A DNA stretch of 55,630 bases from an uncultured Gammaproteobacteria bacterium (GTDB lineage: Bacteria > Pseudomonadota > Gammaproteobacteria > Pseudomonadales > Halieaceae): assembly GCA_902519405.1 (NCBI GenBank), contig CABYJX010000007.1:1-55630 (forward strand), given 5' to 3'. Positions within the stretch are counted from its first letter, which is position 1, and each line of letters starts with the position of its first letter. This document shows positions 9,901 to 29,918 of this stretch, in pieces. The notes below the pieces were generated by a model. That model was not told where the DNA came from, ran no database searches, and worked only from the letters and a program-made list of their open reading frames with translations. The position numbers and the translations under genes are program-made.

Positions 9901-10006
9901 GGGTGAGTCATTGACAGTATCGTATCTTGGCTCCTATAGTATTATCTGCGATGTACCACCTCAGACAGCGATTACCTCTATTGAGACCAGACTAGTTGTA
10001 GAGTAA
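6942..10006 (+). CDS. Secreted zinc metalloprotease with repeat domains, read through a -1 frameshift at an A10 tract
   Basis: The two halves join into about 1021 residues. The first frame (6942-7436, 164 residues) has a signal peptide (FLGIFFVLIISNPVFA) and an N-terminal beta domain, then stops at 7434-7436. The protease frame is open from 7412, just after a TAA at 7409-7411, so the shift must lie within 7412-7433, which holds ten A (7418-7427). Frame 0 is ATA AAA AAA AAA GTG, a good A_AAA_AAA slippery site. After the shift come INLLIYYDDR, the zinc site HEIGHNLGSNHN (His at 7877) and the Met-turn IMGYNS, as in reprolysin-like peptidases. Downstream are two copies of a W/Y-rich domain (about 8190-8500 and 8990-9310), three GG-rich bacterial repeats (YTVTPSAGSGGSISP type) and the C-terminal four-Cys module (9574-10006). 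Alternatively the shift is a base-count error or a recent mutation. Confidence 0.8.
7362..7409 (+). repeat. Tandem 24-bp duplication encoding GALVPPGI twice
   Basis: ggtgcactcgttccacctgg plus cattt/tatt ends: bases 7362-7385 and 7386-7409 differ at one position. The repeat lies directly upstream of the A10 frameshift tract and lengthens the linker between the N-terminal domain and the protease. Confidence 0.9.
9574..10006 (+). repeat. Four-Cys C-terminal module, copy 1
   Basis: About 140 residues with cysteines in the contexts TSCTASDP, VVCPIV, MDCSLTE and IICDVPPQ, plus NSLKLQSRESGLINT and the end PPQTAITSIETR. The same four cysteines, in the same order, occur in the genes ending at 11957, 14206 and 20342. 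Confidence 0.85.
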
Positions 10007-10148: not shown

Positions 10149-10577
10149 ATGGTGCCTACTATTTTCCGCTATAAATCGATAGTTTTTGTGACTTTAATTA
10201 GTCTCTTTCCAAGTCTTCTTCAAAGCGAAGAGTTTTATGATGCATCGGACGCGTGGATTGAAAAAATAGAGGCCACTAACTCCCTAGACTATCTATTTGA
10301 AGGGATGCCGAATCCTCGTATTAATTTTGATGAAGTAATTTTTAAAAGCCTCTATATACCAAAGGAATGGTTTACTTCAACGAGTTATACGTTTGCCCCT
10401 GAATCTCCAGACGACATTGTCTTTGTGCAAGATATCAGAACGCTAGTCGGGTTCGGAAACTATGCTCAAAATAAGGATACGACCTTCGTTGGATATTCGG
10501 CATGGTCTGCTAATTGTCTTACTTGTGGAGTGGGAATTGTCGTGAGCTATGATCCCAGACAGCGATTACGTCTATAG
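10149..10577 (+). CDS. Secreted protein of unknown function, C-terminus runs into a module remnant out of frame
   Basis: 142 residues from the ATG at 10149 (GGAG eleven bases upstream; a TTG at 10131 would only add six residues). Signal peptide YKSIVFVTLISLFPSLLQS, then an acidic mature part (FYDASDAWIEKIEA, SPDDIVFVQDIRTLVGFGNY) ending in SANCLTCGVGIVVSYDP and RQRLRL. The last codons (10553-10577) are the module 3' end sequence (fragment C) read in the wrong frame: the module frame there reads SQTAITSIETRTI. The gene's natural end was therefore probably replaced by a rearrangement. Function not recognised. Confidence 0.6.
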   Translation: MVPTIFRYKSIVFVTLISLFPSLLQSEEFYDASDAWIEKIEATNSLDYLFEGMPNPRINFDEVIFKSLYIPKEWFTSTSYTFAPESPDDIVFVQDIRTLVGFGNYAQNKDTTFVGYSAWSANCLTCGVGIVVSYDPRQRLRL

Positions 10578-10610
10578 AGACTAGGACGATTTGTTGCTAC
10601 ATTTTAAGCG
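10553..10610 (+). repeat. Orphan 3' end of the four-Cys module (fragment C)
   Basis: Reads SQTAITSIETRTICC in the module frame, which differs from the frame of the overlapping gene end. The DNA cccagacagcgattac is shared with the ends of the genes finishing at 10006 and 14206. Confidence 0.7.
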
Positions 10611-12064: not shown

Positions 12065-14206
12065 GTGAAATCTATTTTACTACGCCGATGCCAAATTCAG
12101 ATTTTAATTTTCATTTGGATCGGAATATCGCAAATAACTCATGGTCTGGATGAAATATTCACTCTAAATACCCCAAAAGAAATTCAACTACAAATTAATG
12201 ACCTCGGATCATTCAAAGCTGCGAACGTTAGTGCAGCCAATGGAGAAGTAGAGCTTGTATCAACGCCGGACGTGGGCGCTGAAGAAGGAGTTTTCTCCTT
12301 AATTTATACAAGTACGAAATTACAAAATATTAACCATCGTCTATCGATCACGGGTACGGATATTATCGAAATCAACGTAGTGGATTCGGAGAACTACTCA
12401 ACAACGTTTAGTTATGATGTGATAACGCAGCCCCAGCCAACCGAAAAAAATTATTTACAACCTTCCCACGAGCTTCAGTATTCAAATATCAAGGTCGATT
12501 GGCATGACATACGGGTAAGGAATGGCAGGGATAATCCTGCAGTATGTCCCCGGTTTCAAGGCGAAAACGAATGGGATGACTACTCCGGAGTAGGGTTTGC
12601 CGATTTCAATGGAGACGGCTACGACGATTATGTACTGCATCCTCAGTTTAATGCGAGGCGCGATTCCGAACTAGAATTTGCACTTGGATTGGTTCCAAGG
12701 GAATTAGAGCTCTATCTTTACAAAGATGGCTCCTTTATTTACGAACCGATCAAATATAACGGTCGCGCTAGTAATGATCCTCTTAAATTTCATCTCGCCA
12801 GAAAAATCCTCGTTGGCGACTTCGATAACGATGGAGATCCTGACCTATATTTAGTAAATCATGGCACTGATGTGTACAGTGAAATAACATTTTCCGAAGA
12901 GCAATATCTTTTGGAAAATACTTTTGAAGCAACAGGGGGATTCACCGCGCACAAACTTACTCAAAAAATGGCGGCACATGCAGCTACCTCTGGTGACATT
13001 GATGGTGATGGAGATCTGGATATTTTTACAAGGGGAGATAACAACCCGCAGGTAGATGACAGTATAAAGTTCTGGGGGTTTCTAATTAATAATGGCAACA
13101 ACTCTTTCGTATTAGATCAATCTCTTGTGTCCCCAGACGAATTTTGGTTTTGGTGGGCACAATTTCACTTTGAGTTAGTGGATGTGGATGAAGATGGTTT
13201 TTTAGATCTCATCATGGGTGGACATGAACAAGACAATAATGAAACTAATTTTGCAAAATATCCCACACTAAAAGAGTTTATCGATCTATCTCCTGAAAAA
13301 CACGCGGTTGGCAGAGTGAGGATAATGTGGGGAAGTAGTTCAAAGACCTATAGTGCCGAGAACATGACTATTATTCCAACCGTTCAGGACTACGGTACGA
13401 TTGCTGATCTTGATGTTTTCGATCTTAATAGAGACGGAACTCTTGAACTTTTAGTTACACGAACAGGAGGATCTCCAGATTCTCAAGAGAATTATTATGG
13501 GGGACATTTTGTCCAGATCGTAAGTTTTAAAGAAAGAGTACCCTCTGATATCACCAGCGATATGATCACTGGTAATTCTATTACTGGTAGCCAAGGCGCC
13601 TGCCCGCAAAATAATACTTTATGGATTACATGGATGAGTGCGCAAGACTATGACTATGATGGAGAACTAGATATCTATAGTGTAATGGTTGCGCCAGGTG
13701 GAGATGAGCGTATTCTGCATCGTTGGGAGTGGAATGGTAGTCGATTTATCAGAGTCTCTCCCAAGACCATACCTAATGGTTCTAACAAACGAGTTTATCC
13801 AGCAACCGTATGTAAAGCCGCTGATCCAAGAAATAGTTTAAAGTTACAATCTAGAGAATCGGGACTTACCAATACTGAAATCTCGGGAAATATTGGAATC
13901 ACTTGCGCGATCCCCAGAGATGCTTTCACAGGAGACCTTTTAGCGCCAACCACTTTATTGGATGTAGAGGTAAGTCTTCTGAAGACTACCGAGGATAATG
14001 ACACGGTTACCTGCACGCTGAATGAGTTTCTAGGTCAAGTAGTTTCTAATTCGGAGAGTTTTGAGATAGGTTTAAATGGTACAGCGACGACCACAAAGTC
14101 ATGGAACAACTGGCGACCTGCTAGTAACCTAACCAACTACACCATCACCTGTGACCTGCCGCCCCAAACAGCGATTACTTCTATAGAGATTAGAGCTATC
14201 TACTAA
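12065..14206 (+). CDS. Secreted FG-GAP/VCBS repeat protein with C-terminal four-Cys module
   Basis: 713 residues from a GTG (TAGGAAAG upstream). Signal peptide about residues 1-28 (IQILIFIWIGISQITHG). An N-terminal beta domain (residues about 30-130) is followed by a beta-propeller-like series of calcium-binding FG-GAP/VCBS repeats: DFNGDGYDDYVL, GDFDNDGDPDLYLV, GDIDGDGDLDIF, VDVDEDGFLDLIMGG, FDLNRDGTLELLV and QDYDYDGELDIYSV. From residue about 578 the four-Cys module follows (TVCKAADP, ITCAIP, VTCTLNE, ITCDLPPQTAITS). Such propellers usually bind surface ligands or glycans. Carried between other module genes on the same strand; the long spacing argues for separate promoters. Confidence 0.85.
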   Translation: MKSILLRRCQIQILIFIWIGISQITHGLDEIFTLNTPKEIQLQINDLGSFKAANVSAANGEVELVSTPDVGAEEGVFSLIYTSTKLQNINHRLSITGTDIIEINVVDSENYSTTFSYDVITQPQPTEKNYLQPSHELQYSNIKVDWHDIRVRNGRDNPAVCPRFQGENEWDDYSGVGFADFNGDGYDDYVLHPQFNARRDSELEFALGLVPRELELYLYKDGSFIYEPIKYNGRASNDPLKFHLARKILVGDFDNDGDPDLYLVNHGTDVYSEITFSEEQYLLENTFEATGGFTAHKLTQKMAAHAATSGDIDGDGDLDIFTRGDNNPQVDDSIKFWGFLINNGNNSFVLDQSLVSPDEFWFWWAQFHFELVDVDEDGFLDLIMGGHEQDNNETNFAKYPTLKEFIDLSPEKHAVGRVRIMWGSSSKTYSAENMTIIPTVQDYGTIADLDVFDLNRDGTLELLVTRTGGSPDSQENYYGGHFVQIVSFKERVPSDITSDMITGNSITGSQGACPQNNTLWITWMSAQDYDYDGELDIYSVMVAPGGDERILHRWEWNGSRFIRVSPKTIPNGSNKRVYPATVCKAADPRNSLKLQSRESGLTNTEISGNIGITCAIPRDAFTGDLLAPTTLLDVEVSLLKTTEDNDTVTCTLNEFLGQVVSNSESFEIGLNGTATTTKSWNNWRPASNLTNYTITCDLPPQTAITSIEIRAIY
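13795..14206 (+). repeat. Four-Cys C-terminal module, copy 3
   Basis: Closest to copy 1 at DNA and protein level: NSLKLQSRESGLTNT and PPQTAITSIEIR are nearly the same in both, while the middle segments differ strongly. This is the pattern expected if the ends recombine. Confidence 0.85.
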
Positions 14207-14677: not shown

Positions 14678-14849
14678 TTCTCTCTCCTGATTTTATTCTA
14701 GAAAGATCCTATCCACTTGACGGTAACCATACAAGGTAATCATCGGTTCTCAGAACTAAATAGAAAAACTGACCTTGAGAGCAAAAACTACTCAGTTCTG
14801 ATCAATATATGCTATTTCATGCTAAGTCAGCTTCTAGTAACCTAGCTTG

Positions 14850-17800
14850 ATGATATTCAGAAACCTCGCTTCTAATTTCGTTATATTGGTGTCGTTTGCA
14901 TTAAGCATTGAATCCGTAATGGCAGAGATTGTATGGGGGAGCACGGTTGATATTGCTGGAACATCGGCCGCAGATGATGCGTCGATAGTATCGTCATCTG
15001 ATGGACAAAAAGTAGTCGCTCTTTGGAGGCAAACATGCAGTGGATGTTTTAGTCACGTCCAGACACGTGCAAGTAGCGATGCTGGGGCGACTTGGGGTGC
15101 TACTGCTACATTAAGTCCAACGAATGATGGTGGGAGTCATGCGGATAATCCACAGATTGCTATGTCGTCAGATGGAAACAGGGTTACTGTTGTCTATGAA
15201 CATGCTTCTTATGGTGGAATCAAGACTCACAGCAGTAGTGATGGTGGAAATACATGGAGTGCAGTTACTCTGCTTTCCGAGATTGGTAACAATGAGCGCG
15301 CTGAGTTTCCCAGGGTTGCCATGTCCTCAGATGGCTCAAAAATAACGATTGTTTGGCAAATATATAGCGATAGCTACGAAAAAAAAATTCAGGCACGTAG
15401 TAGCACAGACGGAGGAAATAGTTGGGGTTCGACATATGACTTATCGGTGGGTGGTGCAGACCCAGAGGGCGACGCAGCCGAACACCCAGATATAACCACC
15501 TCAGCTAATGGTACTTCAACAACCGTCGTCTGGCAGAACTATGATTTTGGAACGCCTAATCCCCCATACGCTATTAAATCACGTACCAGCTCCGACAGTG
15601 GGGCTAGTTGGAGTGCTGCTGTTGATGTGAGTATTAGCGATCATAACCTTGCCTATCCTGCGATTGCTGGATCTGATGATGGTGCCCGACTAAATATCGT
15701 ATGGAGATGCGATGATGGCCCCGGTGGAGATAGTTCTACAAGACTCATATGCTCATCAAGAAGTAGTAATTCGGGCTCGAGCTGGGCGGCGGGGACTCAA
15801 CTTTCTTCGACCGGATCTCAACCACCTGCGGTCGTTGCGTCAAGCGATGGCAGTAAGGTTAGTGTCAGTTGGGGACACGGTGATGGTTATATCAATAATA
15901 GCCCCAAAGATACAATTCAGGTGCGCAGTAGTTCGGACTTTGGTGCGAACTGGAACTCGCCTGTTCAAGTGTCTCCATCAGACAATTCTTTTGCGTCTGA
16001 GTATAATCCAAGCTCAGGTATTATGGCCGCATCATCTGCAGGCAATCCGATTATTGTATGGTTAACTGTTGAGGGTTCTAATTATGTAGTTAAAGGTAGA
16101 AGAAGCGTCGACAATGGAAATACTTGGGACCCAATCTTTGATCTTGGAAGTGGAGACGGCGGGACTGGAGATCCGGTTATTGCTATCTCTGCTGACGGTA
16201 GCAAGGTTAGTGCGCTATGGTTTAAGTATGATAACGCTGCCGGTAGCTACACCCTTCAATATCGTAATGGAGTAGTGCCAGCACTACCAGATCCTCCTTC
16301 AGGGCTATCGGCTTCTCCTAGTGATGCCCAGGTAACGATCAGTTTCACTGCGGGAAATTCCAATGGAGCTGCTATCACCAACTATGCCTACAGTACTGAC
16401 GGGACCAACTACACTATCTTAAATCCTGCTGATGCCACGAGTCCGATCACGATTACGGGTCTGACTAATGGTGCGACCTATTCGATACGACTCAAGGCGA
16501 TTAATTCTGTCGGACAAAGTCCGGCATCCAGTGCAGTCTCGGTAACACTGCCGAATGTGCCCGACGCACCGACGGGATTATCTGCGAGCGCGGGTAATGG
16601 CAGCGCGACCATCAGCTTCACTCCGGGTAATAGTAATGGTGCCTCGATCACCAACTATGCCTACAGCACCGATGGAACTAACTATACGGCACTGAACCCT
16701 GCTGATCCGACAAGTCCGATCAATATCAGCGGTCTTAACAATGGAACGACCTATTCGATACGACTCAAGGCAATTAATTCTTTAGGTTACGGTCCAGCCT
16801 CCGCAGCCGTGTCTGTAACGCCGAGTCTGCCGGTAAGTGCACCGGATGCACCGACTGGATTGTCAGCCTCATCCGGTGATGGGCAGGTAACGATTAGTTT
16901 TACTGCCGGTAACAATAATGGCGCAGCTATCACTAACTATGCCTATAGTACAGATGGGACCAACTATACGACACTGAATCCCGCCGATGCCACGAGCCCG
17001 ATTACAATTACTGGTTTGACCAATGGCACCACCTATTCGATACGACTTAAGGCGATTAATTCTGCCGGACAAAGTCCAGCTTCCAGTGCCGTATCTGTAG
17101 CACCGACAGCGTCGGTAAGTGCACCGGATGCGCCGACCGGATTGTCTGCCACACCAGGTGATAGAGAGGTGACGATCAGTTTTACTGCGGGTAATGGGAA
17201 CGGAGCCACGATCACCAACTATGCTTACAGTCTTGATGGATCGAGTTTTAGTAACTTAAATCCTGCAGATGCCATGAGTCCGATTACGATTACGGGACTG
17301 ACCAATGGCACAACCTATTCGATACGACTCAAGGCGATTAATTCTGCCGGACAAAGTCCAGCTTCCAGTGCTATCTCGGTAACGCTGCCTAATGTACCGG
17401 ACGCACCGACTGGATTGTCTGCGAGTGCGGGTAATAATAGAGTGACCATCAGTTTCACTGAAGGAAATTCCAATGGAGCCGCGATTACCAACTATGCTTA
17501 CAGTCTTAATGGATCGAGCTACACCAACTTAAGTCCTGCCGATGCCACCAGTCCCATTACGATTACGGGACTGACCAATGGCACAACCTATTCGATACGA
17601 CTCAAGGCGATTAATTTTGCGGGACAAAGTCCAGCTTCCAGTGCGATCTCTGCAACACCCCGCAGTGCACCTGACGCGCCTACAGGACTATCGGCTTCAT
17701 CAGGAGACGGAGAGGTTACTATAAGTTTCAATGCAGGAAATTCTAATGGAGCCTCGATTACCAACTATGCATATAACACCACAGGGTCGGAACTGAATGC

Positions 17801-20342
17801 TTATAGGGAGTTAAATCCCGCCGATGCTTCCAGTCCGGTTACGATTACCGGTCTAACCAATGGTAAGACCTATTCGATACGACTCAAGGCAATCAATTCT
17901 GTTGGACAAAGCCCGGCATCCAATACCGTATCTGCGGCACCGACATCATCGGTAAGTACACCGGATGCACCGACCGGATTGTTAGCCACACCGGGTGATA
18001 GAGAGGTGACGATCAGTTTTACTGCGGGTAATGGGAACGGAGCCACGATCACCAACTATGCTTACAGTCTTAACGGATCGAGCTACAATAATTTAAGTCC
18101 TGCTGATGCCACTAGTCCGATTACCATCACCGGCCTGATCAATGGCACGACCTATTCAATAAGACTTAAGGCGATTAATTCAGAAGGACAAAGTCCCGCA
18201 TCCAGTGCCGTGTCTGTTACACCGGCACCGGTAGTCTCGGTACCGGATGCTCCCACAGGGTTATCGGCCTCACCAGGTGATGGTGAAGTCACTATCAGTT
18301 TCACTGAAGGAAGTTCCAACGGAGCCGCGATTACCAACTATGCCTACAGTCTTGATGGATCGGGCTACAACAACTTGAGTCCCGCCGATGCCACGAGCCC
18401 GATTACGATTACGGGACTGACCAATGGTACGACCTATTCGATACGACTTAAGGCGATTAATTCTGAAGGACAAAGCCCGGCATCCAGTACTGTATCAGTC
18501 ACTCCAGAGGCTCTGGTTAAGGTGCCCGATGCACCTACGAGATTGAAGGCCTCGTTCGGTGATGGTGAGGTGACCATCAGTTTCACTGCGGGGAATGATA
18601 ATGGAGCCACGATTACCAATTATTCCTATAGCACGGGTGACACTTACTATACTCCTCTTAATCCAGAAGATTCGACTAGCCCGATTACGATTACCGGATT
18701 GACCAATGACGTCACATACACGATCACACTTAAGGCGATTAATTCTGTGGGAGAGAGTATTCCATCGAATCCCGTCTACGTTACACCAAATCAAGTAGGA
18801 TTTGTTCCAGCAGGCGAATGCTCGAAAACACAAGCCGATGAAGAAACGCGTTCAGGCACCTATGTGTTTAGACTTGAAAACCAGGATGAAGTGAATCAGT
18901 TTCGAGCACGCTTTTCAGAAACCACTCCATGGTGCGATTCTTTACCGGGGATTCTTTCGATTTCTAAGTTTGAAAAATGTGATCCTAATACTCAGTTGAC
19001 TGTTGATTCTGGTGTTGCTTGTCAAGTGGGGGGGTTGTTAGCTATGCCGGCACCTGTAAGTGACCTGACGCCTCTCAGCTGGCTTAGGGGGATAGATAGT
19101 TTAGAGGTGGTGGAAACCGACCTGGAAACTTTACAAGGACTGCAGTCTATTACAGGATCTATTGAAGTGATCTCAATTCAGAATAATTCTAATCTTACGA
19201 CGTTGTCGTCCCTGTCGGGTCTCTCTACTTTTGATCGCTTGAGTGACGACGAATTTTTGTTAGATCCAGCATTTGAAACGCTTACCATCACACCTATGCT
19301 GTTTTTACAAGGGAATCCGCTGTTAACTTCTATTAACGGCATTCCTCACAATGTTAATTCTAACGTCAGAATGTTTATTTATATTGCTGATAATCGACCG
19401 AGTCTTTCACAATGTGACACGTCGCTTCTTGATGACTCAAATGTATACGATCCGATAATGAGTATTCTTGCACTTCTCGTTAATCAGGAGAGGGAAGATG
19501 GAACATTTTATTATCCAGGTCCTGGAATTTTGAATAATGGATTTGGTTGTGTTGATCTCGGAGAAGTATCGGAGTATGCGGGGGCTCAGAGATATCAGTT
19601 ATCAGCAAGTGTCACGGAAGGCGGCTATCTGAAGTTTCAAGGACAGAAATCCAATGCACGAGTGACGGTTTTGGAAGAAAAAGAGATCACTTTTCCAGTG
19701 CCGGAAAACTATATTTTTAATGAAGAATCAAATCCAGATCGTTACTTTAAGAATAGATATACTAAGTCAAATTGCAGTAGCTCCATAGAAAGTAGTTATA
19801 AATTCAAAATGCTGAGAGACTGTTCTTTCCACGCAATGTTTGTTCCAGACTTTGATTTATTTAGTGATAAAAAAACTATTGTAATTCCGGGAGCCAGCTG
19901 CAAAGCAACGGATGGTGATGAAGTAGCGTCCTTGCAATTTCGAGAGACAGGGATAACGAATGCTTCAGATCAAAACTCAGTGTCTATTGTTTGTCCTTTA
20001 GGGATGTTAAATTTTGATTCGGTTAGATCTGGTGAGCCGGAAAAGTTCCAGTTCTCATTACTATTTTCTGAGAGTAGTTCATCGTCTTCCTCAAATAATA
20101 ATCTTCCCGTGGAATGTCAGTTGTATCGAACCGACCTTTTTGGAGGCGAGTACCGAGAAGCTGAACAAATGAAGTTGAACATTAAATCTTATGAATCTGG
20201 ATTTGCAAGTGTACACAGTGATTTTTACAACATAGATACCCAGCGAGGGCGTATGACCGAATCAGATGTTTTTTCTGTTAAGTGCGAGCTGCCACCAGGA
20301 GGGACAATTTCAGGTATCGAGATACATACGATGAGTCAGTAA
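14850..20342 (+). CDS. Giant secreted protein: BNR/sialidase-like propeller, nine fibronectin III repeats, leucine-rich segment, four-Cys module
   Basis: 1830 residues from ATG 14850 with a signal peptide (FVILVSFALSIESVMA). Residues about 27-470 hold at least seven Asp-box-like motifs (SSDGGNTWS, SSTDGGNSWG, SSDSGASWS, SSNSGSSWA, SSDFGANWN, SVDNGNTWD), the mark of sialidase-type propellers. Residues about 480-1316 are nine fibronectin type III repeats (PDAPTGLSAS ... TYSIRLKAINS), very alike at DNA level. Next comes a receptor-L/leucine-rich segment (LTPLSWLRGIDSLEVVETDLETL by position, about 1410-1530). The end is the four-Cys module (ASCKATDG, IVCPLG, VECQLY, VKCELPPG). Sialidase catalytic residues were not identified, so an adhesin role is as likely as an enzyme. 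Confidence 0.85.
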   Translation: MIFRNLASNFVILVSFALSIESVMAEIVWGSTVDIAGTSAADDASIVSSSDGQKVVALWRQTCSGCFSHVQTRASSDAGATWGATATLSPTNDGGSHADNPQIAMSSDGNRVTVVYEHASYGGIKTHSSSDGGNTWSAVTLLSEIGNNERAEFPRVAMSSDGSKITIVWQIYSDSYEKKIQARSSTDGGNSWGSTYDLSVGGADPEGDAAEHPDITTSANGTSTTVVWQNYDFGTPNPPYAIKSRTSSDSGASWSAAVDVSISDHNLAYPAIAGSDDGARLNIVWRCDDGPGGDSSTRLICSSRSSNSGSSWAAGTQLSSTGSQPPAVVASSDGSKVSVSWGHGDGYINNSPKDTIQVRSSSDFGANWNSPVQVSPSDNSFASEYNPSSGIMAASSAGNPIIVWLTVEGSNYVVKGRRSVDNGNTWDPIFDLGSGDGGTGDPVIAISADGSKVSALWFKYDNAAGSYTLQYRNGVVPALPDPPSGLSASPSDAQVTISFTAGNSNGAAITNYAYSTDGTNYTILNPADATSPITITGLTNGATYSIRLKAINSVGQSPASSAVSVTLPNVPDAPTGLSASAGNGSATISFTPGNSNGASITNYAYSTDGTNYTALNPADPTSPINISGLNNGTTYSIRLKAINSLGYGPASAAVSVTPSLPVSAPDAPTGLSASSGDGQVTISFTAGNNNGAAITNYAYSTDGTNYTTLNPADATSPITITGLTNGTTYSIRLKAINSAGQSPASSAVSVAPTASVSAPDAPTGLSATPGDREVTISFTAGNGNGATITNYAYSLDGSSFSNLNPADAMSPITITGLTNGTTYSIRLKAINSAGQSPASSAISVTLPNVPDAPTGLSASAGNNRVTISFTEGNSNGAAITNYAYSLNGSSYTNLSPADATSPITITGLTNGTTYSIRLKAINFAGQSPASSAISATPRSAPDAPTGLSASSGDGEVTISFNAGNSNGASITNYAYNTTGSELNAYRELNPADASSPVTITGLTNGKTYSIRLKAINSVGQSPASNTVSAAPTSSVSTPDAPTGLLATPGDREVTISFTAGNGNGATITNYAYSLNGSSYNNLSPADATSPITITGLINGTTYSIRLKAINSEGQSPASSAVSVTPAPVVSVPDAPTGLSASPGDGEVTISFTEGSSNGAAITNYAYSLDGSGYNNLSPADATSPITITGLTNGTTYSIRLKAINSEGQSPASSTVSVTPEALVKVPDAPTRLKASFGDGEVTISFTAGNDNGATITNYSYSTGDTYYTPLNPEDSTSPITITGLTNDVTYTITLKAINSVGESIPSNPVYVTPNQVGFVPAGECSKTQADEETRSGTYVFRLENQDEVNQFRARFSETTPWCDSLPGILSISKFEKCDPNTQLTVDSGVACQVGGLLAMPAPVSDLTPLSWLRGIDSLEVVETDLETLQGLQSITGSIEVISIQNNSNLTTLSSLSGLSTFDRLSDDEFLLDPAFETLTITPMLFLQGNPLLTSINGIPHNVNSNVRMFIYIADNRPSLSQCDTSLLDDSNVYDPIMSILALLVNQEREDGTFYYPGPGILNNGFGCVDLGEVSEYAGAQRYQLSASVTEGGYLKFQGQKSNARVTVLEEKEITFPVPENYIFNEESNPDRYFKNRYTKSNCSSSIESSYKFKMLRDCSFHAMFVPDFDLFSDKKTIVIPGASCKATDGDEVASLQFRETGITNASDQNSVSIVCPLGMLNFDSVRSGEPEKFQFSLLFSESSSSSSSNNNLPVECQLYRTDLFGGEYREAEQMKLNIKSYESGFASVHSDFYNIDTQRGRMTESDVFSVKCELPPGGTISGIEIHTMSQ
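16287..18797 (+). repeat. Nine tandem fibronectin type III repeats
   Basis: Repeat starts at 16287, 16560, 16842, 17124, 17397, 17670, 17961, 18243 and 18525, so units of 273, 282 or 291 bp. Long runs of identical DNA between units (ctattcgatacgactcaagg recurs in most) point to recent duplication or gene conversion. Repeats 4 and 7 are the most alike; repeat 9 is the most diverged. Antisense frames inside are shadows. Confidence 0.95.
19873..20342 (+). repeat. Four-Cys C-terminal module, copy 4
   Basis: Opens with IVIPGASCKATDG like copy 1 (IIPGTSCTASD), keeps FRETGITNA and the four cysteines, and ends CELPPGGTISGIEIHTMSQ. It is more diverged than copies 1 and 3 and carries a poly-Ser insert. 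Confidence 0.8.
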
Positions 20343-20367
20343 TTGGATTTACACCACTAAAGCACCA

Positions 20368-20457
20368 TCCCGGACAGCGATTACTTCCATAGAGACTAGG
20401 GCGGTTTACTAATTGAGAATACGCCATCGAAAAAGCGGTAATATTCACTCCCCCAAA
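20368..20457 (+). repeat. Orphan 3' end of the four-Cys module (fragment E)
   Basis: Reads SRTAITSIETRAVY then TAA (20410-20412), the copy-1/copy-3 type ending. It lies 25 bases after the stop of a gene that already carries its own, different module end. The following bases match fragment A. Confidence 0.75.
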
Positions 20458-23415: not shown

Positions 23416-23920
23416 GTTAAATAATAAATAGTCAATAAAATCAATAACTTATAATAATATAAACCCTCAAAATTTAACTCTTGTACACATTAATGTACAC
23501 TAAAGAGAACCACTGTAGCCAATACAAACTTAGTTTTACCTAACAAATGCCTCCCCCCGGGGGCAGGTCAGTCACTGTTTAATTTTTAATGTACCTACCT
23601 AAGTTTACTAAAGCTAAAATCAGGGTAGGCAGGTGACCATGCCAACCCCTAGGTATATATATCTGCTCAGACATTTTGAGAACTTTTGGTTTGTTAACTA
23701 GTGTTGTTGCATTGGTTTGCTAGGTTCTGTTTGAACCAATATCTTTAGAACTCTCTCACATCAAAGTGCTTAGAAACTTTATAAGTAATACTATCATTTG
23801 TAGCTTCCATAATTTTTTTTCGAGCCAAAACATTTTCTAGCGAATTACCAAGGCTGTTGAAATGATCGCTAGCGTTACATGTGGCGTATTTTGTAAACTC
23901 ACATTAATCTAAGAGTGGCA
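23416..23920. other. Gene-free spacer after tRNA-Ser with repeat A
   Basis: About 500 bases without a credible gene. It contains direct repeat A (23590-23712), a short palindromic site (ACATTAATGT between two GTACAC) near 23484-23500, and a C/G-rich imperfect hairpin (GCCTCCCCCC / GGGGGCAGG) near 23548-23566. No integrase and no second copy of the tRNA 3' end were found. Confidence 0.6.
23590..23712 (+). repeat. Direct repeat A, structured intergenic element
   Basis: Aligns over its whole length with 24906-25032. Shared blocks include ctaaag, agggtaggcagg, gccaNNccct, attttgag and tttggtttgttaa. The left part can fold: ACCTACCT pairs with AGGGTAGG. The function is unknown. Confidence 0.7.
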
Positions 23921-24064
23921 ATGCAGCATTATCCAACTATTGACGAGACAATGAATATACCTCAGATATCTGATTCTCTCGCAGACTTAACGATATTAAT
24001 TTCAATGGAGCATACTGACTGGCATGCCTTTATTTACTGCATTACTCTCGCGAGGGAATTATAA
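23921..24064 (+). CDS. Possible 47-residue leader peptide ahead of the VOC gene
   Basis: ATG 23921 to TAA 24062-24064, with the VOC gene's ATG directly following the stop. Contains NIPQISDSLADLTILISM and ends in ITLAREL. A weak AAGAG precedes the start. GAGGGA inside its end serves the next gene. No family recognised; it may be a coupled leader or a chance frame. Confidence 0.3.
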   Translation: MQHYPTIDETMNIPQISDSLADLTILISMEHTDWHAFIYCITLAREL

Positions 24065-24442
24065 ATGCCACCCTTTTCTATTAAAGAAAGTATAGTGATG
24101 TTCTACTACGAAGATCTCTCTATTGCGGTGCCTTTTTACGAGGACACCTTGGGCTTAAAAAAAATATATAACCTAGACTGGTCAAAAATATATCAGATCT
24201 CTGATACTTCTTGTGTTGGCTTAATTCGCGAAAATGAAAGTAGCTTCCATAAAGCACAGCCTGATAATGCGGTAATGTTGAGTATCGTCACAGACGAAAT
24301 AGACGCTTGGTACAAGCGTTTAAAGAGGGATAAACGTACCGCTTTCATCAAGCATATCTACAACAATGAAGACGCACCGATCCGTGCCTTTCTTGTGAGA
24401 GATCCTGGCGGATACACCATAGAATTTTTTCAATGGCTGTAA
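24065..24442 (+). CDS. VOC (glyoxalase/bleomycin resistance) family protein
   Basis: 125 residues, one VOC unit of two beta-alpha-beta-beta-beta halves: MFYYEDLSIAVPFYEDTLGLK at the start and AFLVRDPGGYTIEFFQWL at the end, where the family's metal Glu (IEFF) sits. The first-half metal ligand (usually His) is not obvious, so activity cannot be assigned. GAGGGA lies nine bases before the ATG. Cytosolic; neighbours give no pathway. Confidence 0.85.
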   Translation: MPPFSIKESIVMFYYEDLSIAVPFYEDTLGLKKIYNLDWSKIYQISDTSCVGLIRENESSFHKAQPDNAVMLSIVTDEIDAWYKRLKRDKRTAFIKHIYNNEDAPIRAFLVRDPGGYTIEFFQWL

Positions 24443-24484
24443 GTTAATAGATCACAAAACGGCATAGCTAATCAGCTCACACAC

Positions 24485-24520
24485 CAACCTAATCAAGCAG
24501 TAGGATATTTAAGTGGAATT
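24485..24520 (+). promoter_or_regulatory. GCAGTAGGA upstream motif, copy 1
   Basis: aacctaatcaagcagtagga followed by tatttaagtgga. Lies about 110 bases before the small membrane protein at 24608. One of four copies (others at 25031, 26450 and 28346). Confidence 0.55.
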
Positions 24521-24607
24521 GATCAGAATATGAGATAAGTTCTTCTGTTATGATCTATTTGAGGGGACACTCTAATTTATAGAGTTGAAACTTTCGTGAA
24601 GTACACT

Positions 24608-24832
24608 ATGAATAAATTTGGAATCTATACAGTAGTATGTTTTACGAATATGATAATTTGTGCACGTGCTGGTATAAATTTAGGAGATGGATTTCTGCAG
24701 GGGTTTCTGATCTTGATGGCAATGATAAATCTATTTATGCTATTCAGCCTTGTTGATACTGGTAAGACGATTTCCGAGTTCGAGCATGAGCGTGATAGGC
24801 GTCGAGAAACAAATAAAAATAAAGATGGCTAG
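24608..24832 (+). CDS. Small membrane protein of unknown function
   Basis: 74 residues from ATG 24608 (a GTG at 24596 is possible). One or two hydrophobic helices (IYTVVCFTNMIICA, FLQGFLILMAMINLFMLFSLV), then a charged tail rich in Glu, Arg and Lys (SEFEHERDRRRETNKN). No strong Shine-Dalgarno is seen. Preceded by upstream motif copy 1, as are three other genes nearby, which supports it being expressed. Not recognised. Confidence 0.5.
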   Translation: MNKFGIYTVVCFTNMIICARAGINLGDGFLQGFLILMAMINLFMLFSLVDTGKTISEFEHERDRRRETNKNKDG

Positions 24833-24905
24833 AGGAAAAATTGAGGACACAGTTACAAGTGCCGCAGGTAATTTTTGTAGGAACCGCAAGTAGGAAAATA
24901 AAAGA

Positions 24906-25032
24906 ACTGCCTAAATTAGATTTCCTAAAGTCCAAATTAGGGTAGGCAGGATGCCATAGCCCTACCTAGTTACATAGACACCTACTCAAGTATTTTGAGT
25001 ACATTTGGTTTGTTAAGTAGTGGTTATACTAA
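24906..25032 (+). repeat. Direct repeat B, structured intergenic element
   Basis: Second copy of repeat A. Can form a strong hairpin: CTGCCTAAATT at the left pairs with AATTAGGGTAGGCAG, and TACTCAA with TTGAGTA further right. Followed within 20 bases by upstream motif copy 2. Confidence 0.7.
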
Positions 25033-25066
25033 CTTGTGCAAGCAGTAGGAAATTTAGGTGAAACTT
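25031..25066 (+). promoter_or_regulatory. GCAGTAGGA upstream motif, copy 2
   Basis: aacttgtgcaagcagtagga followed by aatttaggtgaaac. The core lies 55 bases before the ATG at 25107. Confidence 0.6.
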
Positions 25067-25106
25067 TGTAGGCTTTGGGGTCCGAGAAGAATTAGAGGTA
25101 TGAAGA

Positions 25107-25340
25107 ATGAAAAAGAAACTGGCCCAGATTTTATATTCAGTTACGTCAATCCTCATATTTCTTTCTGTGCTATCGTATGTCCTCTGGCTAATCTATGCTT
25201 GGATTTCGCCTTACCAACAATGTATGAAAAGCTTTATTCCAGAGCCGGGTTTCCTAACAGATCAGGAATATTGTTCCCAAAAATATCCCTGGGAAGCTGC
25301 AAGATTAAAAAAGTTCAACCAGCTTCTAAGGAGTAAATAA
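25107..25340 (+). CDS. Small single-helix membrane protein of unknown function
   Basis: 77 residues: basic start MKKKLAQ, one long hydrophobic helix (ILYSVTSILIFLSVLSYVLW), then a soluble tail with two cysteines (QQCMKSF, QEYCSQKYPWEAARLKKFN), likely periplasmic. AGAGGT is seven bases upstream. An overlapping frame from 25058 is open too but is rich in rare residues and is taken as a shadow. Carries upstream motif copy 2. Confidence 0.6.
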   Translation: MKKKLAQILYSVTSILIFLSVLSYVLWLIYAWISPYQQCMKSFIPEPGFLTDQEYCSQKYPWEAARLKKFNQLLRSK

Positions 25341-25383
25341 ACAGTTATGGTAACCCTATGCGGTAACCACTGGTTTAAATCAA

Positions 25384-26136
25384 TTATTGTGCGGTAAAGC
25401 CGCCGTCTACAGTTAATACTGATCCTTGGCATAGACTGGAATCAGGTGAAGCAAAGAAAAGAATTGCCCCTGCTACTTCATCTGCAGTACCCATTCTTCC
25501 AATTGGCATGGTGCCTTTTAACATTTTTTGAGCTTCTGCTTTGTCAGGCATCAAGTTAGTCCATCTATCCATCATTCCTGTCTCAATAACTCCAGGACAG
25601 ACACAATTAATTCTTACTCCTGTATTGGCTAGTTCAATAGCCATATCTCGAGTGAAAACAACTAATCCTCCTTTTGCACTTCCATAAGCGGTAGATAAAG
25701 GAAAACCAACTAATCCATTTAATGAGGAAATATTGATAACGCTTCCTGATCCAATATTGACCATACCTGGAACAACATATTTACACATTAACCACGGCCC
25801 TTTTAGGTCAGTATCAAGAACCCTATCCCACTCCTCAAGTGTTGTTTTATCATAAGTCTGATTTAATTCAGAGCCAGCATTGTTAACAAGAACGTCTACT
25901 TTGTCCCATATTTTGTATGCATATTCTGAAACGGTTTTGACCTCGGCTTCAATCCTGACGTCACATTTTATTGCATCTACTTCAGATCCCATGTCCTCAG
26001 CAAATGATTTTGCATTGTCAATATCGATATCTGCTATTAGGACCTGTGCACCCTCTTTAACAAAGCGTTTAACTGTTGCTGCGCCAATACCACTTGATCC
26101 ACCGGTAACTATGCATTTTAAACCTTTAAGACGCAC
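25384..26136 (-). CDS. Short-chain dehydrogenase/reductase (classical SDR)
   Basis: 250 residues from GTG 26136 (AGAGGA seven bases upstream). Classical SDR: TGGSSGIGAA cofactor loop, ADID after the second strand (NAD preference likely), NNAG, catalytic Ser in NISSLNG, YGSAKGG with catalytic Tyr and Lys, PGVIETGM, and the end SSLCQGSVLTVDGGFTAQ. The substrate cannot be told from sequence. Stands alone on the minus strand. Confidence 0.9.
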   Translation of the reverse strand: MRLKGLKCIVTGGSSGIGAATVKRFVKEGAQVLIADIDIDNAKSFAEDMGSEVDAIKCDVRIEAEVKTVSEYAYKIWDKVDVLVNNAGSELNQTYDKTTLEEWDRVLDTDLKGPWLMCKYVVPGMVNIGSGSVINISSLNGLVGFPLSTAYGSAKGGLVVFTRDMAIELANTGVRINCVCPGVIETGMMDRWTNLMPDKAEAQKMLKGTMPIGRMGTADEVAGAILFFASPDSSLCQGSVLTVDGGFTAQ

Positions 26137-26216
26137 AATTAGTCCTCTATCATTGTCAGATATTTTTCACAATCATTCAGGATCAGTAGCAAAGTCGTGA
26201 GTGGATGATTAGCATT

Positions 26217-26414
26217 CTAGTCATTTCGATGATCCATAGCCCATGGAAAACCGATGAGCACATAAGCTGAAAAAGCGAAAAAGGCTGAGAAGGCTATTGC
26301 ACTGAATATATCTGAGGGATCTTTATATAAAGTGGATGAGAAAATGACAATACTGATTATCCAACAGCATACTCCTGCTCTCCCAACAATCCTTCTAATC
26401 CAATTTATATTCAT
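26217..26414 (-). CDS. Small two-helix membrane protein of unknown function
   Basis: 65 residues from ATG 26414 (AAGG nine bases upstream; a TTG at 26441 would lengthen it by nine residues). Two hydrophobic helices (GVCCWIISIVIFSSTLY and SAIAFSAFFAFSAYVLIGF) joined by KDPSDIF, with an Arg-rich N-terminus (WIRRIVGRAG). Upstream motif copy 3 lies 36-73 bases before the start. Not recognised. Confidence 0.55.
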   Translation of the reverse strand: MNINWIRRIVGRAGVCCWIISIVIFSSTLYKDPSDIFSAIAFSAFFAFSAYVLIGFPWAMDHRND

Positions 26415-26449
26415 TTCAAAATACCTTGGTTCCACCTTCAATCCTACAC

Positions 26450-26487
26450 AAATTCACCTAAACATCCTACTGCCTGATTAGGTTTAT
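26450..26487 (-). promoter_or_regulatory. GCAGTAGGA upstream motif, copy 3
   Basis: On the minus strand reads aacctaatcaggcagtagga followed by tgtttaggtgaatt. The closest match to copy 1. The core lies 59 bases before the ATG at 26414. Confidence 0.6.
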
Positions 26488-26774
26488 AGGACGGTATTTA
26501 TTGCAGAGTTGCGCTAGTCTTGCGCTCGACAACTTTCAACAATGATTTATTTTTGACCATGATTTTTGCATAGATAATAGCTTTTTTAAGTCGTCTTCTA
26601 GCATCCCGTAACTCAAAAGCATTAAAAAGATTTTAAGTTAGCTAAAACTGGAATTCACAACGACTTAGTTATATAAGAAGAAAGTGCTGACACACCGAGT
26701 AAGTCCAAAACATTACTAAGCCAGACAATTTCTGGGATTTGTACTGATGTTCTTACAGCCAGAATATTTCGGTT

Positions 26775-26816
26775 AACTATAGAAACTCCATCATAAAAGA
26801 TGAAGTTTCTATAGTT
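26775..26816. terminator. 18-bp-arm hairpin at the end of the QPPPGG gene
   Basis: AACTATAGAAACTCCATC and GATGAAGTTTCTATAGTT pair with one mismatch around the loop ATAAAA, four bases past the stop of the minus-strand gene. No U tract follows, so it may be a 3' stabiliser rather than an intrinsic terminator. Confidence 0.6.
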
Positions 26817-26820
26817 GGGC

Positions 26821-27330
26821 TTAGATACATTCAGGTGGGGGCCTGCAACCTGGTTTTGGGAAACAACCACGAGGTGCTAGTCCATTAATCCATTCTCCCA
26901 TACAAGCCGCTGGGAATGGTTTACAGCGATTAGGGATCTTCGCCATATCGCATGCATTGGGCTGTCCACCCGAAGGAGGCTGTCCACCCGAAGGAGGCTG
27001 TCCACTAGGAGGAGGCTGTCCACCGTAGTTGTATTGCCCACCGGGAGGAGACTGTCCACCGGGAGGAGGCTGTCCACCGGGAGGAGGTTGTCCACCGGGA
27101 GGCGGCTGTCCACCGGGAGGCGGCTGTCCACCGGGAGGAGGTTGTCCACCGAGAGGCGGCTGTCCACCGGGAGGAGGTTGTCCACCGGGAGGCGGCTGTC
27201 CACCGGGAGGAGGTTGTCCACCATAGTTATACTGTCCACTAGGGGGAGGCTGTGCAATTAAACTGATCGAGGCAGAAAGCCCAGAAATTGCCACGATTTT
27301 GATCAAGATATGCTTCCAATTCGTGCTCAT
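26821..27330 (-). CDS. Secreted QPPPGG-repeat protein with Cys-rich C-terminus
   Basis: 169 residues. A signal peptide (HILIKIVAISGLSASISLIA) is followed by about 15 hexapeptide units GGQPPP (residues about 27-125), interrupted by two QYNYGG units. The last 45 residues form a small domain with six cysteines (NACDMAKIPNRCKPFPAACMG, RGCFPKPGCRPPPECI), likely disulfide-bonded. Pro/Gly-rich repeats suggest an extended surface or envelope linker. The 18-bp DNA repeat leaves all other frames open; those are shadows. No family assigned. Confidence 0.75.
   Translation of the reverse strand: MSTNWKHILIKIVAISGLSASISLIAQPPPSGQYNYGGQPPPGGQPPPGGQPPPGGQPPLGGQPPPGGQPPPGGQPPPGGQPPPGGQPPPGGQSPPGGQYNYGGQPPPSGQPPSGGQPPSGGQPNACDMAKIPNRCKPFPAACMGEWINGLAPRGCFPKPGCRPPPECI
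26964..27247 (-). repeat. 18-bp tandem repeat (QPPPGG coding)
   Basis: Units of ggaggcggctgtccaccg with small changes (ggaggagg, gagaggcgg). Prone to slippage, so the copy number may differ between strains or be misassembled. Confidence 0.9.
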
Positions 27331-27575
27331 AGAACTATTCCTCTGAGAATTTTAGAAGTTTAAGCCTTGGTCACTTTGTTCGCGTTATTCGGAGAGTATA
27401 ATCAGACAGCAGGAATTATCGAGTCTTAATATGACAATAATTGATATTTTTATGTTGATGTATTAGTGAAGATGTCACCATTCAAGAATTTTTTTTTAAG
27501 CATGACTATTTTTATAACGCGGGCTCGTATCTAGATGTTTGATGGCTTCTCCTTTATCTTCTTCAAATTCCTTAA

Positions 27576-28310
27576 TCACTGGAATATATTGGGATATTTA
27601 GTCATTGAATTTTGGAAGGCTTCGGCCATTATCGGGCTTGCTTTTTTTATATAATAGCCCTGTACGGCTAGAGCTGGTTTCACATGAGAAGCCATATCTG
27701 CGGCATATTCATTAAATTTTTGTCCAGTAGAGGTTTTATGAAATTTGGTTATTTCTCTGAGCTCATCTGTCGAGAAATGGCGACCCCAAGTTGCTAATGC
27801 AATACTATCGGAAAATCCTACTCTTATAAAATATTCAGACATGACGTCCTCTATTTCCTCGATAAATAACTTACTAATCCAAAGATTAAGTTCTACCCCT
27901 TTTGCTATTGCCTGTTCTTGAAGTGTTTGTGCAAGACCCTCTGAAAATCCAGCAATAATTCCTTCCACATAGCGCTCGCTTGTGCTTAGGCTGCCCATGA
28001 CTTTGTGCAGTTCTAATGCCGCTTGTTTTCTAGCCGCAGGTAACTCTTCTATTTCCCGAATCAGATCATCGCTAGCAACCGTATCAGCCAAGGTATCCGT
28101 GATTAACCCAGGTAATTGTTTAATTTCCTGAATCAGATTATCACTAGCAACTGTATCAACAAAAGCATCTGAAACTATTACCCCAAGATCATCATCGGTA
28201 TGGGCCACTTGTCCAATACAAGTGAACAATAAGAAAAAGACTAGATTTAAACCTTTCTTAAATAATTTTTTCTTGATGGTAGCTTGGGTTCCAAATTGGA
28301 ATTGCATCAT
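27576..28310 (-). CDS. Secreted DUF2059-domain protein with internal duplication
   Basis: 244 residues. Signal peptide GLNLVFFLLFTCIGQVAHT. Two adjacent copies of a roughly 27-residue segment follow (AFVDTVASDNLIQEIKQLPG and TLADTVASDDLIREIEELPA). The second half is a DUF2059 helical domain: WGRHFSTDELREITKFHKTS followed by TGQKFNEYAA. The family is periplasmic with unknown role. ATG at 28310 or 28307. Upstream motif copy 4 lies about 60 bases before it. Confidence 0.8.
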   Translation of the reverse strand: MMQFQFGTQATIKKKLFKKGLNLVFFLLFTCIGQVAHTDDDLGVIVSDAFVDTVASDNLIQEIKQLPGLITDTLADTVASDDLIREIEELPAARKQAALELHKVMGSLSTSERYVEGIIAGFSEGLAQTLQEQAIAKGVELNLWISKLFIEEIEDVMSEYFIRVGFSDSIALATWGRHFSTDELREITKFHKTSTGQKFNEYAADMASHVKPALAVQGYYIKKASPIMAEAFQNSMTKYPNIFQ

Positions 28311-28345
28311 TTTTCAATCCTCTCATTCTTGTCTTGTACTTATAC

Positions 28346-28384
28346 CTTGATCTACCTGAATATCCTACTGCTAGATTGGTTAAA
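28346..28384 (-). promoter_or_regulatory. GCAGTAGGA upstream motif, copy 4
   Basis: On the minus strand reads ttaaccaatctagcagtagg followed by atattcaggtagat. The core lies 61 bases before the DUF2059 start. Confidence 0.55.
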
Positions 28385-28538
28385 TAAACTCGCGATTATC
28401 CATACAAGGGCCTAGCAAAAATTTATTGGTTTCGTAATCATTTAAAGCCTCAAAAATCTTGAAGTGTGCTTTTCTAATCATAGATAAGCTATATTTTCTT
28501 CGTCAGCGACAAAATTCACTGGCAATTATTCTATATAA

Positions 28539-29918
28539 TCATTTGCCATTATCTGCTGATCTTTGATGTAGCTCCATACCGATCGCGGTCCAGTTTGCAA
28601 AACCTTTCCAGTACCTAGGGTCTTTGGTATCAGTTCTCGGTGAATCATTAGACATAATTGAAAGGTTCAAGTAATCGTTATACTTTTTTTCCTCGCCTAG
28701 CAAATGTTTACCGAGAAAAGCAGTTATGAAGTGTTGGTTAATATTATTAAGCCTGCGATTATCCCATGCAGGTTCCTGGTAATGAGCGTATTCTCGCGGA
28801 TAAAGATCTGCCAGAGGTGGAGCGGGATTTGTAGCCACCTCATGAATTGCATTTTGAAATATCAATAAATAGCGATCTGAATTAATTGCATTATCAAAGA
28901 GCCATTGCGCTGCGGTAAAACCGGTTGTTTGATCTTGGTCACCTACGATGAAAAGGCTAGGTATTCTAAGATTTTTTATCCCGACTTGACTCCAAAATCC
29001 CGCAGGAGCAAAAGGGGCAAAGGCGACAATCACTTTTATTCGTTTATCCAGCGTGGCACCGAAGTTTGGATTGTCAGCCTGGAAGTCTATTAAATAGGGT
29101 TCAGGAATATCTCCTGGGAAATAAAGGGCTTGCTTACTAGCGCCGACACCTGCTGCACTCAATGCGCCGTATGTGCCCATAGAATAACCAATGACTGCGG
29201 TAAGTTCGGCATTAACCATTTGAAATAAAAATGATTCTGGGTTTCGGCTCATATTGGCCAGTGCCTGAATAACAAAGTTTATATCACGAGGTCTATGTAC
29301 CATTGTGCTGCTTATCGATTCAACATCAGCGTGGGTGGACCCTTCGTGATCTATGGCCACTACAATATATCCCTTTGATGTTAAGTTTTCCGCCAACCAG
29401 GTCATCATCACTCGAGATCCAGAATAGCCATGAGAAACTATTACTAAGGGGAAGGTCATACCCCCCGAGTCTATCGCTGCATCACGTGCAGCTCTTCCCC
29501 CAAACTGGAATTGCAAATTTGGTCGATCTGGATTATTCGGACCGTGTCCAAGCACGTCACTATATATTGTGATTTGTTGTTGATTCCCTAAAAGTTTGGC
29601 GGGATACCATACCTCTAGCGTTAGTTTGCGCTCGTAGCGAGAAATGGGCTTTCCTTTTGTGAGATTGAGTAGGTCCGGCTGGTTTGGATTGACCACTTGC
29701 AGGGTACGAACACCTACTTTATACCCGCCTCGGGTAGCTAATTCAGGTGAATCTCCACGAGGATCTCCATAGAAAAAATCTGTTTCAATAAGGTCGGCAC
29801 ATCCATGTTTCGTATACTCCGTCGGATTATGATCAAGGTGTGGAGCGCCACATTCATGTAGAGCATGAGCGTCGATAGTCAGAATCAATAAAACTACTAG
29901 TATTGTAAGCTCTCGCAT
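28539..29918 (-). CDS. Secreted alpha/beta hydrolase (dienelactone/PAF-acetylhydrolase-like)
   Basis: 459 residues from ATG 29918, where GAGG lies six bases upstream and a signal peptide starts (ELTILVVLLILTIDAHA). A start at 29966 would put 16 polar residues before it. Hydrolase marks: TFPLVIVSHGYSGSR oxyanion strand, AIDHEGSTHAD, nucleophile GYSMGTYG, acid in FIVGDQDQTTG and the catalytic His in NAIHEVATNP. Fold and size resemble PAF-acetylhydrolase and dienelactone-type esterases acting outside the cytoplasm. Substrate not known. Confidence 0.85.
   Translation of the reverse strand: MRELTILVVLLILTIDAHALHECGAPHLDHNPTEYTKHGCADLIETDFFYGDPRGDSPELATRGGYKVGVRTLQVVNPNQPDLLNLTKGKPISRYERKLTLEVWYPAKLLGNQQQITIYSDVLGHGPNNPDRPNLQFQFGGRAARDAAIDSGGMTFPLVIVSHGYSGSRVMMTWLAENLTSKGYIVVAIDHEGSTHADVESISSTMVHRPRDINFVIQALANMSRNPESFLFQMVNAELTAVIGYSMGTYGALSAAGVGASKQALYFPGDIPEPYLIDFQADNPNFGATLDKRIKVIVAFAPFAPAGFWSQVGIKNLRIPSLFIVGDQDQTTGFTAAQWLFDNAINSDRYLLIFQNAIHEVATNPAPPLADLYPREYAHYQEPAWDNRRLNNINQHFITAFLGKHLLGEEKKYNDYLNLSIMSNDSPRTDTKDPRYWKGFANWTAIGMELHQRSADNGK

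Follow-up and report, generated by a model that had tools for sequence, protein, structure and literature searches.

A dispersed intergenic element of about 63 bp as a candidate portable promoter/operator module of exported-protein genes in two Halieaceae sister species

The window, by which we mean the whole 55,630-nucleotide stretch of DNA analysed here, is contig C7 of G000, the 1.71-Mb, 60% complete draft genome of an uncultured member of the Halieaceae. Table 1 lists four of its genes and the intergenic features that lie near them. An earlier note on this DNA described the gene products as three small membrane proteins and a DUF2059 protein. The three small proteins do carry hydrophobic segments and have no Pfam match, whereas the DUF2059 match of the fourth product is weak (22.3 bits, below the cut-off of 23.6). 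The motif said to precede all four genes is real: the window contains exactly four copies of the 9-mer GCAGTAGGA, against a mean of 0.29 in shuffled sequence, and none of 100 shuffles reached four. Each copy points at a gene start (24608, 25107, 26414 and 28310), as had been claimed. The flanking sequences proved less constant than described, since only copies 1 and 3 have the left flank AACCTAATC in exact form, and only copies 2 and 3 the right flank TTTAGGTGAA. A spacing of 55, 59 or 61 bases to the start codon, given for three copies, was not recovered; measured from the 9-mer, the gaps are 102, 56, 50 and 52 bases.

Table 1. Genes, element copies and second-repeat (R150) matches in window positions 23541-28395
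Feature	Position	Strand	Details
R150	23541..23705	+	no element behind; dyad 23665-23691
Element copy 1	24473..24536	+	core 24488-24514; core end to ATG 24608, 93 bp; E 1.2e-16; exact 9-mer 24497-24505 (+)
Gene	24608..24832	+	small hydrophobic protein, 74 aa; no Pfam match
R150, 3′ part	24921..25022	+	directly upstream of element copy 2; dyad within 24984-25010 (ACTCAAGTATTTTGAGTAC)
Element copy 2	25018..25085	+	core 25033-25059; 47 bp to ATG 25107; E 3.1e-13; exact 9-mer 25042-25050 (+)
Gene	25107..25340	+	small protein, 77 aa; N-terminal hydrophobic segment; no Pfam match
Gene	26217..26414	-	small protein with hydrophobic segments, 65 aa from ATG; no Pfam match
Element copy 3	26430..26497	-	core 26456-26482; 41 bp to ATG 26414; E 6.5e-16; exact 9-mer 26465-26473 (-)
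Gene	27576..28310	-	predicted exported protein, 244 aa; weak DUF2059 match below cut-off
Element copy 4	28328..28395	-	core 28354-28380; 43 bp to ATG 28310; E 2.8e-9; exact 9-mer 28363-28371 (-)

The motif represents the core region (CCTAATCAAGCAGTAGGATGTTTAAGT, 27 bp) of a longer, gap-free element, which measures about 63 bp and has imperfectly mirrored arms on either side of that core. A gap-free alignment of eighteen copies spans 68 columns, with the consensus CCCCAAACACACCAA-CCTAATCAAGCAGTAGGATGTTTAAGT-(K)(R)AATTGTGTAGGATTTGGGG, and several extend as ATAAGAAGAATTAGAGGT toward the start codon, running into a leader with a ribosome-binding site. Within the element GTAGGAT occurs twice as a direct repeat, at a spacing of 23 bp; it is not a sigma-70 consensus. 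Full copies have imperfect terminal inverted repeats, CCCCAAACACA and TGTGTAGGATTTGGGG. The mirrored arms are partial or absent in many copies, including all four in the window, and in copy 4 the arms have decayed and 21/27 core positions are retained. Among 16 strong copies, conservation is highest in the core, at 1.78 bits per position, compared with 0.99 and 1.35 in the left and right arms, respectively, and 0.3-0.5 outside; the core value is partly due to ascertainment because a core search supplied the seed of the profile. Decayed copies range from those with intact arms and a lost core to the reverse. A presumed resemblance of the element to dif/XerD-like sites and to T7/SP6-type promoters was considered and dropped.

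Whole-genome searches with a sequence-only profile (acceptance at E ≤ 0.001 in G000 and G001) yielded 13 copies in G000, nine in G001, the 70% complete genome of a sister species, and one in G144, a Halieaceae genome from another genus. No copy was found by profile search in G002, a sister genome of the same genus that is 88% complete. The other 137 of 140 family genomes gave no match, and G000 was the only matching genome among 390 drawn from the order; both searches used strict filters, with which weak copies may be lost. An exact scan for the core in GTDB contigs returned three stretches, all in one Halieaceae MAG (JAQWLX01). When a 20-mer was allowed up to 3 mismatches, 33 of 97 relatives matched, with single or few matches each outside G000 and G001, at the level of the reversed control. 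Beyond these two genomes, the best 20-mer match is a single site in G066, differing by 1 mismatch. An origin from phages, plasmids or viruses was rejected, with no match to an 81-nt consensus in phage and plasmid collections and none to the exact core patterns in viral contigs. The element-bearing contigs are C7, C8, C29 and C57 in G000 and C25, C95, C100 and C133 in G001, and 40-kb stretches of eight other G000 contigs held nothing above noise (one 6.8-bit match). One doubtful copy was seen on C8 of G001.

To describe the position of the element relative to genes we used 24 collected copies, of which 16 are strong (≥45 bits) and eight weak, and linked a copy to a gene if a start codon, curated by hand, lay within 130 bp in the copy's own orientation. 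Copies inside genes or in random orientation would have spoken for a plain dispersed repeat, as the earlier note pointed out. None of the 24 lies within a called ORF of at least 60 aa, with the left arm of C100:8866 overlapping the last codons of the preceding gene, and 14 of the 16 strong copies are gene-linked in their own orientation, against two of 16 when reversed (discordance 12 to 0, p 0.0005). The 130-bp limit favours the promoter/operator reading, since two reversed copies reach starts 132-133 bp away, and counting these the discordance becomes 10 to 0. Nor is every copy an independent case, because two pairs are orthologous between G000 and G001 and one pair has its right flank in common. 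The distance from the end of the core to the start codon is clustered, at 38-65 bp in 11 of the 14 linked strong copies and 85-103 bp in the other three. For C100:8866, which counts among the 14, the start is that of a 45-aa ORF chosen by hand, the next longer ORF being 218 bp off. Weak copies are linked less often (3/8; Fisher p 0.02). The two strong copies that are left unlinked, C8:20464 and C29:17045, have a common left flank. A convergent gene that we take to be SEC-C-like lies behind C8:20464; this name, like the name fibronectin-III-like, is presumptive, being assigned by eye.

The products of the 17 gene-linked copies include FG-GAP-repeat, NnrU, glycine-transporter-domain, lipoprotein-like and small hydrophobic proteins, the NnrU gene starting with TTG at 16440. 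A simple hydrophobicity rule classes 16 of the 17 as exported or membrane proteins. Of the 246 background ORFs, taken from the same contigs, it so classes 91 (p 6e-7); these are length-greedy ORFs, spurious ones included, set against curated products. The exception is a NucS/Shedu-like gene on C57, a match below cut-offs. The membrane association noted in the window thus extends to the genome-wide set, but the products are not always small, a point that the earlier note had proposed to check.

A second repeat, R150, is likewise intergenic, measures about 150 bp and in places lies next to the element. It gave 16 matches in two of 58 genomes, 12 in G000 and four in G001, and is co-oriented within each contig (four matches on C8, five on C29, two each on C7 and C100, and one on each of three others); a single reversed fragment lies at C8:27484-27520. 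R150 immediately precedes the element at three sites: window copy 2, C100:6035 and C100:16364. Its most conserved 3′ part contains a dyad, GCTCAAACATTTTGAGTAC, a pattern with 11 matches in three of 140 genomes (seven in G000, three in G001 and one in G144). These are the three element-bearing genomes, and the reversed dyad, used as a control, gave none. The element directly follows the dyad at four of the 11 sites and not at the other seven, and the dyad is therefore no more than an optional component. Dyad and core recur together in a second genus: in G144 the core is preceded, at a distance of about 25 bp, by the dyad, and a secreted metalloprotease gene follows. Relatives of this metalloprotease are present in two of 56 other genomes of the genus of G144; for the better of them, in G048, DNA similarity to G144 ends about 50 bp inside the gene.

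Across the 24 copies, left and right flanks were compared independently of each other, and among the 276 pairs eight have only the left flank in common, three only the right flank, and none both. The orthologue of gene 24608 on G001:C133 also has the element upstream, and the DNA farther to the left resembles the left flank of C8:17483, not that of the window. Relatives of window genes (glyoxalase, small, SDR and DUF2059-like genes) are found on C95 and C133 of G001, with the SDR gene inverted and other genes interspersed. Simple inversion between the inverted window copies was rejected by eye because the SDR gene on G001:C133 is inverted and the neighbouring relative of gene 25107 is not. As the only candidate for an empty site in a relative we found G001:C100:10487-10871, which lacks the element; its right side diverges, and it is therefore a junction rather than an empty site. 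The element thus appears to mark junctions at which upstream DNA and genes were recombined. Horizontal regulatory transfer, in which upstream regions are replaced independently of the genes behind them, is described in PMC5890482 (citing Oren et al. 2014). Judging by the one-sided flank homology, upstream regions here seem likewise to have been swapped without the gene. In intergenic switching as described there (PMC5890482), one gene has different complete upstream regions in different strains, whereas here a short common element lies at the junctions of many different genes within one genome.

From location, orientation, spacing, the exported bias and the one-sided homology at the element, all of which are observed, we propose that the motif may well be the core of a lineage-specific, portable promoter/operator module residing in hypervariable islands of the two sister species. 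The module would consist of the ~63-bp element, with the dyad of the second repeat directly before it in four places. Most likely, the element would supply transcription to the gene that follows, acting as a promoter, perhaps with the dyad as operator, and the genes served would be chiefly those of exported and membrane proteins, with regulation perhaps exerted through the dyad. Recombination of the islands at the module, probably between copies, would place one upstream region before different genes and one gene behind different upstream regions. A promoter/operator fits best since the element is intact next to starts and keeps a fixed orientation before unrelated genes, with differing left flanks. 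Against the module stand two intact copies with no gene start behind them, decay of the element before two G001 relatives (degenerate upstream of the relative of gene 25107 and barely recognisable, at 11.6 bits, upstream of the DUF2059-like orthologue), the absence of copies from the sister genome G002, the seven dyads that have no element directly behind them and the lack of a sigma-70 signal. Sigma-70 promoters (TTGACA/TATAAT, 16-18 bp apart) were rejected as an explanation, with no signal above chance: 11 sites were found in window positions 23500-28700, where shuffled sequence gave a mean of 14.4, and none of the listed sites lies on an element copy. The earlier note's interpretation as a shared promoter/operator is thus partly supported; orientation, spacing and products speak for it, but the motif also belongs to a dispersed element that marks recombination junctions.

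It is possible, although we think it rather unlikely, that the element is a non-autonomous dispersed repeat of MITE or REP type that inserts between genes without itself regulating them, the bias toward starts reflecting survival of insertions and duplication of the islands. The inverted termini of full copies and the spectrum of decayed ones are consistent with such an origin, as is the presence of copies on contigs with recombinase remnants or phage-satellite-like genes. Against this account speak the markedly non-random orientation and the concentration of intact copies beside starts. At full copies no target-site duplication was visible by eye, the ends of the element are not sharply defined, and no clean empty site was found; where one flank is common, the other is unrelated. 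The closest counterparts among known repeats are the Correia repeat enclosed elements of Neisseria, MITEs of 204 bp that carry promoters and an IHF site, as described in PMC10969869. Like them, the element is small and dispersed, has inverted ends in its full copies and lies predominantly upstream of genes; unlike them, it measures about 63 rather than 204 bp and has far fewer copies. It differs also in having no sigma-70 match above chance and no visible target-site duplication, and in that its well-preserved copies nearly always take one orientation to the gene. On this comparison the element appears to resemble Correia elements in kind and intergenic switching in behaviour. Among the matches listed in literature searches there was no such element from the Halieaceae, which does not establish its absence from print.

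The 11 pairs of copies with exactly one common flank, the co-orientation of R150 within contigs and the reshuffling of neighbouring genes between G000 and G001 could also be explained by a site-specific recombination system. A cassette system resembling integrons would then use the element as its recombination site and be driven by a tyrosine recombinase other than IntI, of DUF6538 type, each cassette gene beginning just behind a site. In integrons, attC arrays combine repeated intergenic sites, one-sided flank homology and genes that start shortly behind the sites, and the element matches them in these three respects. DUF6538 matches are present in G000 (one) and G001 (four), with three of the five on element-bearing contigs, and are not found in G002 or G144. 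The frames, however, are truncated, fragmentary or near contig ends, and G144 has its single copy of the element without DUF6538. attC sites carry the boxes R″ (RYYYAAC) and R′ (GTTRRRY), 20-110 bp apart. No such pair occurs in any of the 16 strong copies on either strand, the fraction in random windows being 0.006. Among PF00589 matches, three in G000 and two in G001 (60% and 70% complete), NCBIfam models identify two XerD and two XerC above cut-off, and these are the full-length ones. The fifth protein, encoded on C57, has an integrase-domain match that falls short of the model's cut-off, and none reaches an integron-integrase cut-off, both genomes being incomplete. Identity with attC was rejected on the box test and the recombinases found. 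Unlike integron cassettes, the intervals between elements are long and irregular, with sites 0.4-8 kb apart, often between divergent genes, and genes on both strands; the reversed R150 piece on C8 also counts against the cassette reading. We consider a cassette system of this kind improbable. Slightly less probable still is the fuller version, in which the element would be an att-like site and DUF6538-driven shuffling would place exported-protein genes behind a shared, promoter-bearing site, an arrangement like that of integrons but built from unrelated components. If true, the cassette reading would represent a second, unrelated way of building gene-cassette arrays.

A 5′-UTR element, which the earlier note had also suggested, taken here as a riboswitch-like RNA or a small-RNA target, would account for the start-codon spacing and for the common leader with its ribosome-binding site, but it is very unlikely and was rejected on folding, covariation and Rfam: fold z-scores are about −1.1 in two full copies, +1.4 to +1.5 in two window copies and +0.1 in a third, RNAalifold yields 4 base pairs with no compensatory change, the window contains no Rfam family except two tRNAs and the SRP RNA, and the left flanks are mostly unrelated between copies, so that such an element would need a promoter from elsewhere each time.

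If the promoter/operator module is what the sequences suggest, one short module would bring new exported-protein genes under common control while the islands of a marine bacterium are reshuffled, and promoter capture would become testable at defined junctions in one genome.

Among further repeats in the window, the copies of a 58-nt repeat are 62–72% identical to the reference, and the last begins at the base directly after the stop of ORF 14847-20342. The repeats of the 1831-aa ORF are presumably fibronectin-III-like, judged by eye. Copies 3 and 4 of the dispersed upstream element flank the gene for the 169-aa protein, whose tandem repeat encodes GGQPPP.

Features located in the window and in related stretches
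Feature	Position	Strand	Basis
58-nt repeat, four places	window 9934-9991, 10528-10585, 14137-14194, 20343-20400		repeat search
Eight ~282-bp repeats inside single 1831-aa ORF	window 16286-18823		repeat search
169-aa protein with 18-bp tandem repeat	window 26821-27330	-	ORF + repeat search
102-aa ORF with ubiquitin domain	L145:5572-5880 (G144 contig C1)	+	PF00240 match
Proteins with common signal-peptide start	L015:5970-7343	-	
Same	L015:7608-7886	+	
Same	L015:9570-10487	+	
Same	L017:4206 and L017:9749; L044:3286		
DUF6538 tyrosine recombinase	L015:13124-14503 = C8:33123-34502	-	

The tabulated DUF6538 recombinase, of the family that would drive cassette recombination under a less likely reading of the element, is truncated and lacks its catalytic end; the sister species G001 has four more matches, on C24, C25, C28 and C100. 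On contig C57 of the window's genome, the element lies directly 3′ of one ORF and ahead of a gene labelled NucS/Shedu-like from matches below cut-offs. A P4-like integrase and phage-satellite-like genes were seen by eye on this contig (L018).

In G144, another Halieaceae genus, the ubiquitin-domain ORF lies near a secreted metalloprotease gene on a 271-kb contig. It scored 45.3 bits in the domain profile search (cut-off 25.4) and ends in LRLRG; it is a bacterial ubiquitin-like protein. Proteins from L015, L017 and L044 whose mature parts differ have one signal-peptide start in common, MLSTKFFYIKLIAVLL and variants; leader plus signal appears to be a module swapped across these proteins.
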